37,667 nucleotides of DNA, from positions 1 to 37,667 of the forward strand of contig REDS01000110.1 of NCBI GenBank assembly GCA_007693395.1. The letters run 5' to 3'. The stretch is from Balneolaceae bacterium. Its GTDB lineage: Bacteria; Bacteroidota; Rhodothermia; Balneolales; Balneolaceae. A model generated the notes under the pieces. The model saw only the letters and a program-made list of their open reading frames with translations. It was not told the origin of the DNA and searched no databases. This document shows positions 26,570 to 32,905 of this stretch, one piece after another. A program made the position numbers and the translations under genes. The number at the start of each line of letters is the position of its first letter. Within the stretch, counting starts at the first letter, position 1.

Positions 26570-27484
26570 ATGAAGAGCCCTGCCCAAAATCATTTCCCTC
26601 ATTTTATTATAGAAAACGGCCTTAAATGGCTCTATAATCCTGTTTTGAAAAAGCGATTCAGAGACAGGCCCGAAGAGAGAGTCCGCCTTGCCTGGCTGGA
26701 GTACCTGCTCCATCAAACCGATGTAAAAAAATCGCGGATTGGGTTTGAGAACCCAGTGAAGATTCCGCAGGCCAAAAACGATCTCAGGGCAGACATCATC
26801 ATATATGATGATACGATGAAGCCATCCATTCTTATTGAGTGCAAAGCTGAAAATGTGCGGCTCAATACAACCGCTGCCGAACAAGCCGCCAGGTATAACC
26901 AGGCAATTGGTGCTGAATATCTGGTGCTCACAAACGGGGTTGAAGATTTATGGTTTCAGTGTAATGATGAAGGCACGTATCCGGTTTCATCCAGGTTTAA
27001 TCACTATGGCAACTTTGGTGCGGATAAAATGGCAGATTACTGGAAGAATCGCGGGTTTTTGAAATCATCCGAAAATCCGGAATTAACAGAATTTATCACT
27101 GACCTGCTGAACAAATTTTGGAATGATCAGATGATTGGCAACAGAAGATACCTGGCTTTTCAGGGGAGTATAGATGGACTGCCGATGAGCCATTACTATA
27201 AAATCATTGAGATCAATGATCAAACCAAGCTGGCAGTTACCATTGCAGGCAGCGGGAGTTCGGGTCAATATCTGCTGGCTATTCGAAATGAAGATGGCGC
27301 TGCAACAGGTATGATTAGTGTTGATCTTGAGATGATTTTATCAAATGAAAACCCGGCTATCACCATTTACAGCAAAGGCAACACAGAAGTAAGAGATGCA
27401 GATATGGAAAGCCTGTTTTCATATAAAAGCAAGAAGGGATATCTCAAAAAACTGCCTGAAACTCTCCTGAACTTTTTTGATTAA
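26570..27484 (+). CDS. Stand-alone type I restriction R-subunit N-terminal (HsdR_N) domain protein
   Basis: A 304-residue protein whose first 130 residues match the HSDR_N nuclease domain: the RVRLAWLEYLL helix (37-47), RADIIIYD with Asp75, and the PD-(D/E)xK half-motif ILIECKA with Glu90 and Lys92. A helix with Gln (EQAARYNQAIGA, about 105-116) completes the fold, and TNGVEDLWFQ follows. No helicase motor, specificity or methylase gene accompanies it. The rest (about 135-304) is beta-rich and unrecognised. Such orphan proteins are common in Bacteroidota and are probably housekeeping or repair proteins rather than restriction enzymes. The active-site residues look intact, so nuclease activity is possible. 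The upstream yidC is on the same strand, 78 bases away. Confidence 0.8.
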   Translation: MKSPAQNHFPHFIIENGLKWLYNPVLKKRFRDRPEERVRLAWLEYLLHQTDVKKSRIGFENPVKIPQAKNDLRADIIIYDDTMKPSILIECKAENVRLNTTAAEQAARYNQAIGAEYLVLTNGVEDLWFQCNDEGTYPVSSRFNHYGNFGADKMADYWKNRGFLKSSENPELTEFITDLLNKFWNDQMIGNRRYLAFQGSIDGLPMSHYYKIIEINDQTKLAVTIAGSGSSGQYLLAIRNEDGAATGMISVDLEMILSNENPAITIYSKGNTEVRDADMESLFSYKSKKGYLKKLPETLLNFFD

Positions 27485-29576: not shown

Positions 29577-30329
29577 GTGATGATTGATAAAATTCAGAGA
29601 CAGAGGTTTGAACTCAAGTACAGAATATCTGAATCGAAAGCTTTACAGATTCGGCAGTTCGTTCAAACCTATCTTGAATGTGATTTGTATGGACAGACCC
29701 AACCGAACTTATCTTATCGGGTAAATAGCCTCTATCTCGACTCTCCCAACCTCAAAACCTACCGCGATACCATCAATGGCGATAGAAACCGCTTTAAACT
29801 GAGGTTGCGTTATTATAATGTGAACGAAGGTCCGGTCTATTTCGAGATTAAGCGCAGGCACAATAAAGTTATCCGAAAAGAGCGGGCAAGTGTACAGCGG
29901 GAACTGGTTGATGATCTTTTGAATGGCGGTGTGCCAACGCACAACCACCTTGTGCAAAAAACGCCCGGGCAGCTCCAATCACTATCCAATTTTATCTACC
30001 TGTACAATATGATTGGTGCCTCTCCAAAAGTACAGGTAACCTATTTGAGGGAAGCATACGAGAGGCCGAACGACAATTCAGCACGGGTTACCTTCGACAG
30101 AAATGTGCAAACATGCTCACGCTTAAAAAACAGCTACGGCCTGGACGTTCGGTACGATAATCCCGTAAGTGTGTTTGGAAATACAGTTATTTTAGAGCTG
30201 AAATTTACCGACAGATTCCCACACTGGATGCAGGAACTCATTCAGGTTTTTCATCTCAGGCAGCAGTCAGCTGCGAAATATGTGGATGGAATTATCAGAA
30301 TAAAAAACAAGCGATTAACAACTACCTAA
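29577..30329 (+). CDS. VTC-domain protein (polyphosphate polymerase-like)
   Basis: A 250-residue triphosphate-tunnel-type protein. The start QRFELKYRIS (about 9-18) supplies the first basic and acidic tunnel residues. YRVNSLYLDSPNLKTY (46-61), NRFKLRLRYY (70-79), YFEIKRRHNKVIRKERA (87-103), and late VTYLREAYE and VILELKFTDRFPHW blocks complete the VTC fold. In yeast Vtc4 this domain makes polyphosphate from ATP. Bacterial copies are uncharacterised and most often sit beside DUF4956 genes, as here. The tunnel residues look complete, so catalysis or polyanion binding is possible. It has no signal peptide or membrane helix, and is probably on the cytoplasmic face. First gene of a three-gene unit; the next starts 18 bases on. 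Confidence 0.85.
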   Translation: MMIDKIQRQRFELKYRISESKALQIRQFVQTYLECDLYGQTQPNLSYRVNSLYLDSPNLKTYRDTINGDRNRFKLRLRYYNVNEGPVYFEIKRRHNKVIRKERASVQRELVDDLLNGGVPTHNHLVQKTPGQLQSLSNFIYLYNMIGASPKVQVTYLREAYERPNDNSARVTFDRNVQTCSRLKNSYGLDVRYDNPVSVFGNTVILELKFTDRFPHWMQELIQVFHLRQQSAAKYVDGIIRIKNKRLTTT

Positions 30330-30347
30330 AAAAAGAATGTACACCAC

Positions 30348-31034
30348 ATGAACGATTGGTTACAATTTGGTGATACGGCGCCACTGCCAACGGATCTGCC
30401 CACATTGCTTTTAGGGCTTCTTCTGGCATTTATGTGCGGGCAGCTGCTTGCGTGGGTCTATATGTACACCCACAGCGGCCTTTCCTACTCCCGTAATTTT
30501 GTAAGTTCACTCATTATCATACCCATCACTGTGGCACTGGTTATGATGGTGTTAGATAACAACCTTGTAACTGCCTTCAGTCTTCTTGCAGTTTTTGCCA
30601 TCGTACGTTTCCGTAATATTCTTCGGGATACACTCGATACGGTGTACATTCTCTCCCTGATTGTTGTTGGTATGGCGTGTGGTACCCAAAAGTTTACTAC
30701 AGCTGTAATCGGAGTGCTTGTGGCAGCACTTGCCCTCATTTTTATCTGGTTTACCAACTTTGGTGCAAGACAGCGATACGACCTTATCTTAAACCTCAGC
30801 TGGGCACTGCCGCTATCTAAACTCGATGACCTTCAGAATTTTCTGAAGCGGCACACGCTGAAAACAAAGCTTGCATCGCAGCGATCGGGCGATGGCTCTG
30901 AGGATATTCACCTGTCGTACAGGCTTTTGATGCGTGATCCCGATCGGGTTGATTTACTGCTTGATGAGATTAAAACGATAGATGGTGTTTCTAATGTAAG
31001 TAGCCTTCGGGCAGAAGATGAATCGGAGATTTAA
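30348..31034 (+). CDS. DUF4956 membrane protein
   Basis: A 228-residue protein with four hydrophobic helices in the first 140 residues (about 20-40, 50-68, 70-85 and 98-138, the last probably double) and a soluble C-terminal region of roughly 85 residues (SKLDDLQNFLKRH to the end) shaped like a ferredoxin-like domain. The FAIVRFRNILRDTLDTVYIL segment (about 81-100) is the family hallmark, with arginines inside a membrane region. Function is unknown; partners of this family are VTC-domain proteins, as at 29577. It is followed after three bases by the HlyD-like adaptor, so all three are almost certainly one transcript. Confidence 0.85.
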   Translation: MNDWLQFGDTAPLPTDLPTLLLGLLLAFMCGQLLAWVYMYTHSGLSYSRNFVSSLIIIPITVALVMMVLDNNLVTAFSLLAVFAIVRFRNILRDTLDTVYILSLIVVGMACGTQKFTTAVIGVLVAALALIFIWFTNFGARQRYDLILNLSWALPLSKLDDLQNFLKRHTLKTKLASQRSGDGSEDIHLSYRLLMRDPDRVDLLLDEIKTIDGVSNVSSLRAEDESEI

Positions 31035-31037
31035 GCC

Positions 31038-32132
31038 ATGCAAAAAAACTACACACCGGTTCCAATTCCATTAAAGCAGCGCCTCAGAGAGATACGCGTG
31101 AGAGTTATACCGCTGGCTGTTTTTCTAATGGTTGGCGTTGCAGTTTTCTTCTTATGGGAAAATCAGGTAAGCTCACCTGCTATGATCGGGGAAGTTGTGG
31201 GAGATCGCTCAACAGTGGCAAGCCCGGCCAGCGGAATATTGATCAATTTCTACTATAACGATTTTGACCGGATAGAGGAGGGCCAGCTTATCGGGCAGAT
31301 TTACAGGCAGGATACCCTCTACGTAAATGCACAACTTTCACTTTTACGGGCTGAAAGCGATCTGATACGGGAAAGCATGGATATAGGTGCGGACGACATG
31401 CGAAACCGATCTAATCTTGAAGATCTGAAAATTGAAGAGTTAAACTCAAGAATTGCACTGGCAGCAACCCGGTTGAGAAAGCAGCAGGCAGACCTGAACT
31501 ACCGGCGTGCAGCTGAACTTTATGAACGGGATTTGATTGCCGAGCAGGAGTATGAACTTGCGAAGATGGAGTTGGAGCTTTTATCTGTTGAAGTAAGCGA
31601 AACAGAAGATTTGATTGAGTTTCTTGGAGAAAGAGTTAGGGAAAATGAGGAGTTTCAGCGATATGATACACGTGCTGACCGCGACCCGATACTTGCCGCA
31701 ATTCGTGTGCAGGAGCAAAAAATGGAGACACTGCTGGCAGAATCGGCGCCACTCCCAATTTACGCCCCTATCAGCGGTATTGTGAGTATGGTAAACCATA
31801 AAACCGGTGAGTATGTGGCTGCCGGAGACTCACTTTTACGGATTGAATCTGCTGAACCGGCTTACATTGTTGGTTATATGCGTCAGCCATTCACAGTTCA
31901 ACCTGAAGCCGGAATGGCTGTTGAAGTGCGTACAAGAAAACCTGGAAGAGCCTCATTTGAATCGAATATAGAGCAGTTGGGAGGGCATGCGCGTATGATT
32001 GACAGCCAGTTACAACGCCCCGGAGCAATTTATGAAAGTGGCTTGCCTGTAAAAATTCCTGTAAATCCTTCAGCAGATATCACGCTGACGCCGGGAGAAA
32101 TAGTAGATATCGTTTTACGCCCGGGCTGGTAA
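31038..32132 (+). CDS. HlyD-type membrane fusion protein
   Basis: A 364-residue periplasmic adaptor. A basic N-terminus and a single helix (about 24-41, VIPLAVFLMVGVAVFFLW) anchor it in the inner membrane. A split lipoyl/biotinyl domain follows: VASPASGILINFYYNDFDRIEEGQ (first half) and PLPIYAPISGIVSMVNHKTGEYV (second half). Between them lie long coiled-coil helices (about 100-235) rich in Glu, Leu and Arg, and a C-terminal beta-barrel ends the chain. No ABC, RND or MFS exporter and no outer-membrane channel are encoded next to it. The partner in the membrane is therefore plausibly the DUF4956 protein, an inference from the three-base spacing only. Confidence 0.85.
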   Translation: MQKNYTPVPIPLKQRLREIRVRVIPLAVFLMVGVAVFFLWENQVSSPAMIGEVVGDRSTVASPASGILINFYYNDFDRIEEGQLIGQIYRQDTLYVNAQLSLLRAESDLIRESMDIGADDMRNRSNLEDLKIEELNSRIALAATRLRKQQADLNYRRAAELYERDLIAEQEYELAKMELELLSVEVSETEDLIEFLGERVRENEEFQRYDTRADRDPILAAIRVQEQKMETLLAESAPLPIYAPISGIVSMVNHKTGEYVAAGDSLLRIESAEPAYIVGYMRQPFTVQPEAGMAVEVRTRKPGRASFESNIEQLGGHARMIDSQLQRPGAIYESGLPVKIPVNPSADITLTPGEIVDIVLRPGW

Positions 32133-32137
32133 ATTGG

Positions 32138-32905
32138 TCATCCACGAAGATCCCGCAAATACTCTTTAGCTTCCTCGAGAAAATCCGGGTCATCTATTAA
32201 TCGTGGCTCCAACTCAAGCAGCTCTTCAAGTACGGGGATAGCTCTGTCATCATGGCCCGATCTCATAAAGTGACGGGCTAAATCCAGCCTGATGATGATA
32301 CTTTTACCATCAAGGCTTTTAGCTTTCATTAAATACTCTTCAGCAAACTCATTTGTGCCATCGGGCAAACCACCGGAAATAAAGCGTGCTGCCACTCTTT
32401 CTGCACGGCTAACATTTGCAACTTCCGACTGCCACACACCATAAAGATGCCAGGATGGGGCGTGATCGGGCATGAGTTCCACGGCTTTTTTAGCGAGTTC
32501 ACCAATAATGTGGCCCAGCTCAATTCTTCGGTTTACACCAACATGGTCTGCCATTCGGCCTTTTGCAACTGCCATAACGTAATATGGGTGGCCGCTATCA
32601 CCATGCAGCTCCATTGCCTTTTCGGCAAGTTTCTGTGCACGTACATAGTATTCCACTTGCCTGTTTTCATCTTCAAACCGGAATCCAATAGTTGAGTGCA
32701 GCAGGCTTGCATTCCATAAGGCGTCGTAATGTTCAGGATTATCTTCAAGAACTTGCAAGTAGAGATCGAGCGCTCCCTCTTGGTTATGGGCTTCCATTAA
32801 TTCAGCGGCCTCGTGCAGAAGTTCATCAACAGATTGTGCAAATGCAGGTATTACAGCAAAGCAAGTGAAGAAGAATACTACTATCAGTTTGTTAAGCATG
32901 TGCAT
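32138..32905 (-). CDS. Exported TPR protein, RMDN-like
   Basis: A 255-residue protein with a signal peptide (about 1-23, cleaved near AFAQS) and several tetratricopeptide-type helix pairs over 25-250. The block HLYGVWQSEVANVSRAERVAA, then GGLPDGTNEFAEEYLMKAKSLD, resembles the TPR proteins related to eukaryotic RMDN (regulator of microtubule dynamics), whose bacterial members are uncharacterised periplasmic or envelope scaffolds. It converges on the HlyD-like gene, with only five bases between the stop codons and no hairpin visible, so transcripts probably overlap. Function unknown; binding to peptide or protein partners is the usual role of TPRs. Confidence 0.75.
   Translation of the reverse strand: MHMLNKLIVVFFFTCFAVIPAFAQSVDELLHEAAELMEAHNQEGALDLYLQVLEDNPEHYDALWNASLLHSTIGFRFEDENRQVEYYVRAQKLAEKAMELHGDSGHPYYVMAVAKGRMADHVGVNRRIELGHIIGELAKKAVELMPDHAPSWHLYGVWQSEVANVSRAERVAARFISGGLPDGTNEFAEEYLMKAKSLDGKSIIIRLDLARHFMRSGHDDRAIPVLEELLELEPRLIDDPDFLEEAKEYLRDLRG

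Follow-up and report, generated by a model that had tools for sequence, protein, structure and literature searches.

A VTC-DUF4956-HlyD operon of a Balneolaceae bacterium as a possible envelope-spanning conduit for a phosphate polymer

How might a periplasmic adaptor of a kind thought to require a pump serve in an operon that encodes none? The question is raised by three consecutive genes in a stretch of 37,667 nucleotides from a Balneolaceae bacterium (assembly GCA_007693395.1, contig REDS01000110.1; the whole stretch is called the window below), which encode a protein of the VTC family, a DUF4956 membrane protein and an HlyD/EmrA-type adaptor. The answer favoured here, with a probability of about 45%, is that the three products make up one envelope-spanning assembly, in which VTC would make and drive a phosphate polymer, DUF4956 would replace the inner-membrane exporter and the adaptor would lead to a TolC-type channel. 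This assembly is supported by gene order and its conservation, fold kinship, the retention of catalytic residues and a docking motif largely kept in the adaptor. The locus is made up of these elements:

29577..30329, + strand: VTC/TTM-fold protein of 250 amino acids (Pfam VTC)
30330..30347, + strand: 18-base gap between the VTC and DUF4956 genes, read from the sequence and consistent with a single transcript
30348..31034, + strand: DUF4956 membrane protein of 228 amino acids (Pfam DUF4956)
31035..31037, + strand: 3-base gap between the DUF4956 and adaptor genes, read from the sequence
31038..32132, + strand: HlyD/EmrA-type periplasmic adaptor of 364 amino acids (Pfam HlyD_D23 and HlyD_3)

The arrangement given in a preliminary description of the window, three genes on the same strand separated by 18 and 3 bases, is exact in its reading frames and gaps, and its statement that no exporter is encoded here holds among the neighbouring open reading frames: no ABC, MFS or RND transporter is found in the operon or its flanks when the open reading frames of the window are compared with Pfam. 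In a pattern scan of the gap between VTC and DUF4956, promoter- and terminator-like sites were not clearly in excess of those in shuffled sequences. DUF4956 and VTC are single-copy genes in the genome of the window (3.56 Mb), HlyD_D23 has 11 matches there, and the chance of an adaptor lying no more than two genes away is estimated at about 1-2%, assuming some 3,100 genes. Among 98 non-redundant DUF4956 loci (clustered at 85% identity from a set collected for its kinship to the window, which makes their frequencies biased and not those of all bacteria), an adaptor gene stands in the same operon in 71, and compared with that estimate the adjacency is not a matter of chance. The genes of these loci were labelled with profiles trained on the loci themselves and spot-checked with Pfam; VTC is present in 79, VTC together with the adaptor in 56 and neither of them in 4, while CotH kinase genes occur in 29 of the operons, a TolC-like gene in 14 and DUF2490 in 10. 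The possibility that most VTC-DUF4956 loci might lack the adaptor, raised in the preliminary description as a ground for giving up its proposal, is answered by the presence of the adaptor in 56 of the 79 non-redundant loci that carry VTC.

A quick tree of the 98 DUF4956 proteins, which comes from a short search, has some long branches and is used here for its deep split and for clustering only, separates two superclades of 78 and 20 loci. The larger holds adaptors in 71 loci, in three gene orders, and in the smaller no adaptor was found; it is missing from the Gram-positive loci examined as well. Loci with the same gene order tend to stand together on this tree, which requires 16 changes of order compared with 53 in shuffles. 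The order VTC-DUF4956-HlyD is found in Balneolota, in many Verrucomicrobiota and in one Hydrogenedentota genome, and the wider phylum sample added the orders HlyD-VTC-DUF4956 and DUF4956-HlyD-OMF (outer-membrane factor). One locus (L086, 8001-16142, the same place as L060) contains two tandem VTC-DUF4956-HlyD cassettes with a CotH gene between them. Across the 116 genomes of the order, DUF4956 is present in 66, VTC in 46 and both in 45; among the matches listed, the VTC gene immediately precedes DUF4956 in every case but one, where it ends at a contig edge. Genomes whose DUF4956 operon is without VTC were searched for VTC elsewhere, and none was found. Since loci without VTC exist, VTC is optional, and DUF4956 plus the adaptor is the more general unit.

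Some operons also contain a putative or clear outer-membrane channel. A Balneolales subclade without VTC carries DUF4956-HlyD followed by a gene for a protein of 410-441 amino acids with a putative signal peptide, which gives a weak OEP match in one member (0.0019) and none in another, and whose profile matched no solved structure; it is called TolC-like on the basis of this below-cut-off OEP match, its length, the putative signal peptide and its position. In the loci of this subclade (L031-L048), DUF4956 is mostly preceded by YceI-like and DUF6580 genes, and an SDR gene comes after the TolC-like gene. The gene in the TolC role is a clear OEP (1e-34) in L199, beside DUF4956 and an adaptor and without VTC, and again a clear OEP in L213, where DUF4956, HlyD, OEP, VTC and CotH stand in a row, and a plasmid of Hymenobacter volaticus encodes an adaptor (annotated as hypothetical), DUF4956 and a 'TolC family protein', likewise without VTC. 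The preliminary description had suggested that DUF4956 could be an adaptor-linked channel or transporter for a polyanion made or bound by VTC. This proposal finds partial support: the DUF4956-adaptor-TolC operons without VTC favour the link to the adaptor and point to DUF4956, not VTC, as the adaptor's partner. In the adaptor-less diderm superclade, an outer-membrane beta-barrel of the DUF2490 family often follows DUF4956. Among Gram-positives, plasmids of Planococcus and Pseudobutyrivibrio carry VTC-DUF4956-CotH or CotH-VTC-DUF4956 without an adaptor, and no adaptor was seen in the Paenibacillus, Acetoanaerobium and Nonomuraea loci; neither an adaptor nor an outer-membrane partner was thus seen in this small sample of five loci. 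Within the limits of so small a Gram-positive sample, the pattern is as expected if adaptor and barrel are what extends the system across the outer membrane.

The window's adaptor matches HlyD_D23 (2.1e-9) and HlyD_3 (1.3e-8) above the cut-off, and the top match of its profile in the PDB is EmrA (4tko, 3.4e-23). Its AlphaFold2 model (mean predicted local distance difference test score, pLDDT, 87.6) predicts an N-terminal membrane helix (12-43), lipoyl halves and an alpha-hairpin (119-206) that turns at 164-168, and EmrA of EmrAB-TolC is also the top Foldseek match of the model (E 1.4e-17). The TolC-docking (RLS) motif, R-x3-L-x6-S (PMC3391258), falls on R157-L161-A168, at the predicted tip of the hairpin; because of the alanine at 168 the protein fails the strict pattern. 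Among 50 aligned members, R157 is kept in 49 and L161 in 41, and Ser occupies position 168 in 32 members, Ala in 10 and Thr in 3; a Ser-to-Ala change in the docking motif of MacA leaves some activity (PMC3391258). The strict motif is present in 16 of 18 HlyD-VTC-DUF4956 adaptors (1.9 expected from shuffles) and in 21 of 34 VTC-DUF4956-HlyD adaptors (5.5 expected), 3 of these 21 being off the usual position. The identity of the adaptors in the HlyD-VTC-DUF4956 group rests on profile matches, which relate them to those of the window's group (probability 99, E 1e-19) and to AcrA/MacA structures; 5 of 8 tested adaptors of other groups had no Pfam match at 0.01. A short adaptor relative of about 240 amino acids, divergent from VTC-DUF4956 and placed upstream of VTC, not after DUF4956, is encoded in L132, L136 and L147, and seems to be without the long hairpin.

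The DUF4956 protein matches its Pfam family (PF16316) with E=1.4e-11 and a score of 44.9 bits (cut-off 30.6). Modelled with AlphaFold2 (mean pLDDT 76.6), it has five predicted membrane helices and a C-terminal ACT/ferredoxin-like domain (142-228) of the order beta-alpha-beta-beta-alpha-beta. Fold comparisons with Foldseek and VIA-align include, among many others, the C-terminal domain of MgtC from M. tuberculosis (2lqj); these matches covered the ACT-like domain only, which is a common fold, and say little on the membrane part. When profiles are aligned by hhalign, DUF4956 and MgtC match over 192 columns (probability 97, E 4.8e-11), and an unrelated membrane family used as a control gives 0.3 with DUF4956 and 0.2 with MgtC. 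The MgtC model matches two DUF4956 genes at 8e-4 to 9e-4, under its cut-off, and the DUF4956 protein of L031 gets 13.8 bits of the 31.4 required by MgtC PF02308; nothing in the window's genome is above the Pfam cut-off of PF02308, and searching the PDB with the DUF4956 sequence produced no significant match. Judged by its sequence profile, DUF4956 is a distant relative within the MgtC superfamily, outside the MgtC family proper. Only two residues, R87 and R89, are invariant in a wide superfamily alignment of DUF4956; they lie where the third helix ends, and by the positive-inside rule they would face the cytosol. The alternative that survives best builds on this kinship: DUF4956 would be an MgtC-like membrane regulator that uses its ACT-like domain as a ligand sensor to control VTC or a partner pump, with the adaptor serving an exporter encoded elsewhere. 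The profile match to MgtC, the ACT-like domain with its match to 2lqj and the absence of any energised transporter domain (by Pfam) from the window's DUF4956 fit such a regulator; however, a regulator has no need to keep an adaptor alongside, and DUF4956 is paired with one in each of three gene orders, and also in operons with a TolC-family gene and no other inner-membrane transporter, so that we regard this alternative as rather unlikely.

The VTC protein matches PF09359 over residues 10-239 of 250 (E=3.2e-42, 145 bits against a cut-off of 23), and VTC is the sole Pfam domain in it, SPX and a membrane domain being absent. In the PDB its profile finds the yeast Vtc4 structure 3g3q (2.5e-20). 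R10, K14, R72, K74, R76, R78, E90, K92, K101, R158, R170, E207, K209 and K234 are invariant among 26 diverse members and all present in the window's protein, and K14, R76, R78, K92, R158, R170, E207, K209 and K234 align to the basic tunnel and the metal-binding glutamate of Vtc4. Yeast R264, R266 and E426, substitution of which inactivates yeast VTC (PMC9911596), have invariant counterparts in the bacterial group; the loss of catalytic tunnel residues, which the preliminary description had thought fatal to its proposal, is therefore not seen. On this sequence evidence, the window's VTC is a candidate polyphosphate polymerase. PPK1 is encoded in the window's genome and in most relatives, so that a storage polymerase already exists and VTC is unneeded for storage polyphosphate. 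A literature search gave no functional study of a bacterial VTC alongside DUF4956.

Put together, the assembly might work as follows. VTC, a cytosolic tunnel enzyme, would make a phosphate polymer from ATP, polyphosphate being the leading candidate, and DUF4956, MgtC-like and with a cytosolic ACT-like domain, would be the inner-membrane subunit and provide the polymer's exit path. The HlyD/EmrA-type adaptor would dock on DUF4956 and recruit a TolC-family channel, whose gene belongs to the operon in some relatives and would lie elsewhere in the window's genome. Polymerisation itself would drive the chain forward, much as the VTC complex of yeast couples synthesis to passage through a membrane channel (PMC9911596), and hence no classical pump would be needed. 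We infer physical contact of the components, passage through DUF4956, the identity of the cargo and the coupling to synthesis.

The MgtC kinship, the outer-membrane partners and a link to CotH kinases go beyond what the preliminary description had. CotH is encoded in 64 of the 66 DUF4956 genomes of the order, against 13 of the 50 others, a count that ignores phylogeny, and several of these kinases carry LTD and secretion-tail domains. In Gram-positives, CotH-VTC-DUF4956 genes accompany pel exopolysaccharide operons (PMC7112168), and on the Planococcus and Pseudobutyrivibrio plasmids CotH, VTC and DUF4956 lie beside glycosyltransferase and acyltransferase genes. The NELoc-2 locus of Clostridium perfringens contains VTC, CotH and membrane neighbours of 222-226 amino acids annotated as 'tubulin/FtsZ' (PMC2879425); from their size and their position beside VTC genes, CP4_0461 and CP4_0464 are probably misannotated DUF4956 proteins. 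Such company suits a second alternative, in which this VTC subgroup is another triphosphate-using TTM enzyme that acts with CotH in the phosphate decoration of a secreted polysaccharide or protein, DUF4956 and the adaptor moving the polymer or anchoring the modifying complex. The pel operons, the transferase neighbours and the frequency of CotH, in operons and across the order, speak for it, but the Vtc4 tunnel residues, including the counterparts of R264, R266 and E426, are invariant and no conserved polysaccharide genes were seen beside the window's locus, which leaves it unlikely, a little more so than the regulator. Improbable, though it would explain why CotH goes with DUF4956 both in operons and in the phylogenetic profile, is a further proposal, that VTC, DUF4956 and the adaptor export polyphosphate as the phosphate donor for secreted CotH kinases in the ATP-less space outside the cytosol; if true, it would amount to bacterial extracellular phosphorylation with its own energy supply line. 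That the adaptor belongs independently to an ordinary efflux pump and lies by chance beside unrelated genes was rejected as very improbable: adaptors are common (as the HlyD_D23 matches show) and orphan adaptors exist, but the adjacency is kept across Balneolota, Verrucomicrobiota, the Hydrogenedentota genome and other lineages, and profile comparison shows kinship between the adaptors of two gene-order groups.

Several observations weigh against the proposed assembly. The window's locus is without an outer-membrane gene, as are most VTC-DUF4956-HlyD loci; six OEP proteins are encoded elsewhere in the window's genome and none in the window. The sole OMF gene found adjacent to VTC among VTC-DUF4956-HlyD loci, in L110, had been considered as proof of a dedicated channel and was dropped, since in the window's genome its orthologue comes after a fragment of an RND pump and in neighbouring genomes an RND pump operon lies next door; the adjacency may be a remnant of such an operon. 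The strict RLS motif is found in just 1 of 12 adaptors of the DUF4956-HlyD-OMF subclade, and about 20 DUF4956-bearing genomes of the order are without VTC, so that a VTC product cannot be the sole cargo. The sampling bias described above counts here as well, and MgtC, the nearest characterised superfamily of DUF4956, is known mainly as a regulator.

Around the trio, a convergent gene for a TPR protein lies downstream, and a DUF308-like protein and a peptidase-like open reading frame are encoded upstream. The TPR protein (32138-32905, - strand), putatively exported and convergent with the adaptor gene, has as its top Pfam match RMD1-3 (2.5e-10), a family named for microtubule regulators. Further off, at 26570-27484, a stand-alone type I restriction HsdR N-terminal domain protein is encoded, with no restriction partners seen nearby.

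DUF4956 is widespread yet nameless, and seldom mentioned in open-licence literature. Should it be the membrane subunit of a polymerase-driven conduit, it would be the bacterial counterpart of the eukaryotic VTC translocase, would reveal a route for a phosphate polymer out of a diderm cell and would be an unexpected partner for adaptors thought to require a pump. The operon is present in the cultured species Gracilimonas mengyeensis and Rhodohalobacter sulfatireducens, which makes the proposal directly testable.

Four known systems can be compared with the locus. With MgtC/SapB, DUF4956 shares the plan of membrane helices and an ACT-like domain, along with the profile match over 192 columns, and differs in its motif, G-x-x-G-x-x-x-I-x-R-F-R, and in its operon partners VTC, HlyD and CotH. 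The Gram-positive CotH-VTC-DUF4956 sets (those of pel operons and of C. perfringens NELoc-2) likewise have VTC beside DUF4956 and CotH, although in cells without an outer membrane and without an adaptor. The adaptor resembles those of EmrAB-TolC and other tripartite exporters in its membrane anchor, lipoyl halves and alpha-hairpin, and has the Arg and Leu of the TolC-docking motif at the predicted tip, whereas the operon has no MFS, RND or ABC exporter, DUF4956 standing in that place, and the outer-membrane channel of DUF4956 loci is usually encoded elsewhere. Finally, in the eukaryotic VTC complex (Vtc1/Vtc3/Vtc4), too, a tunnel enzyme of the TTM fold with these catalytic residues is linked to a membrane protein; its subunits bear SPX and a fused membrane domain, both absent from the window's VTC. 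In the bacterial set the membrane component is a protein of its own, MgtC-like and predicted to have an ACT-like domain, and an adaptor is added that continues across the periplasm.
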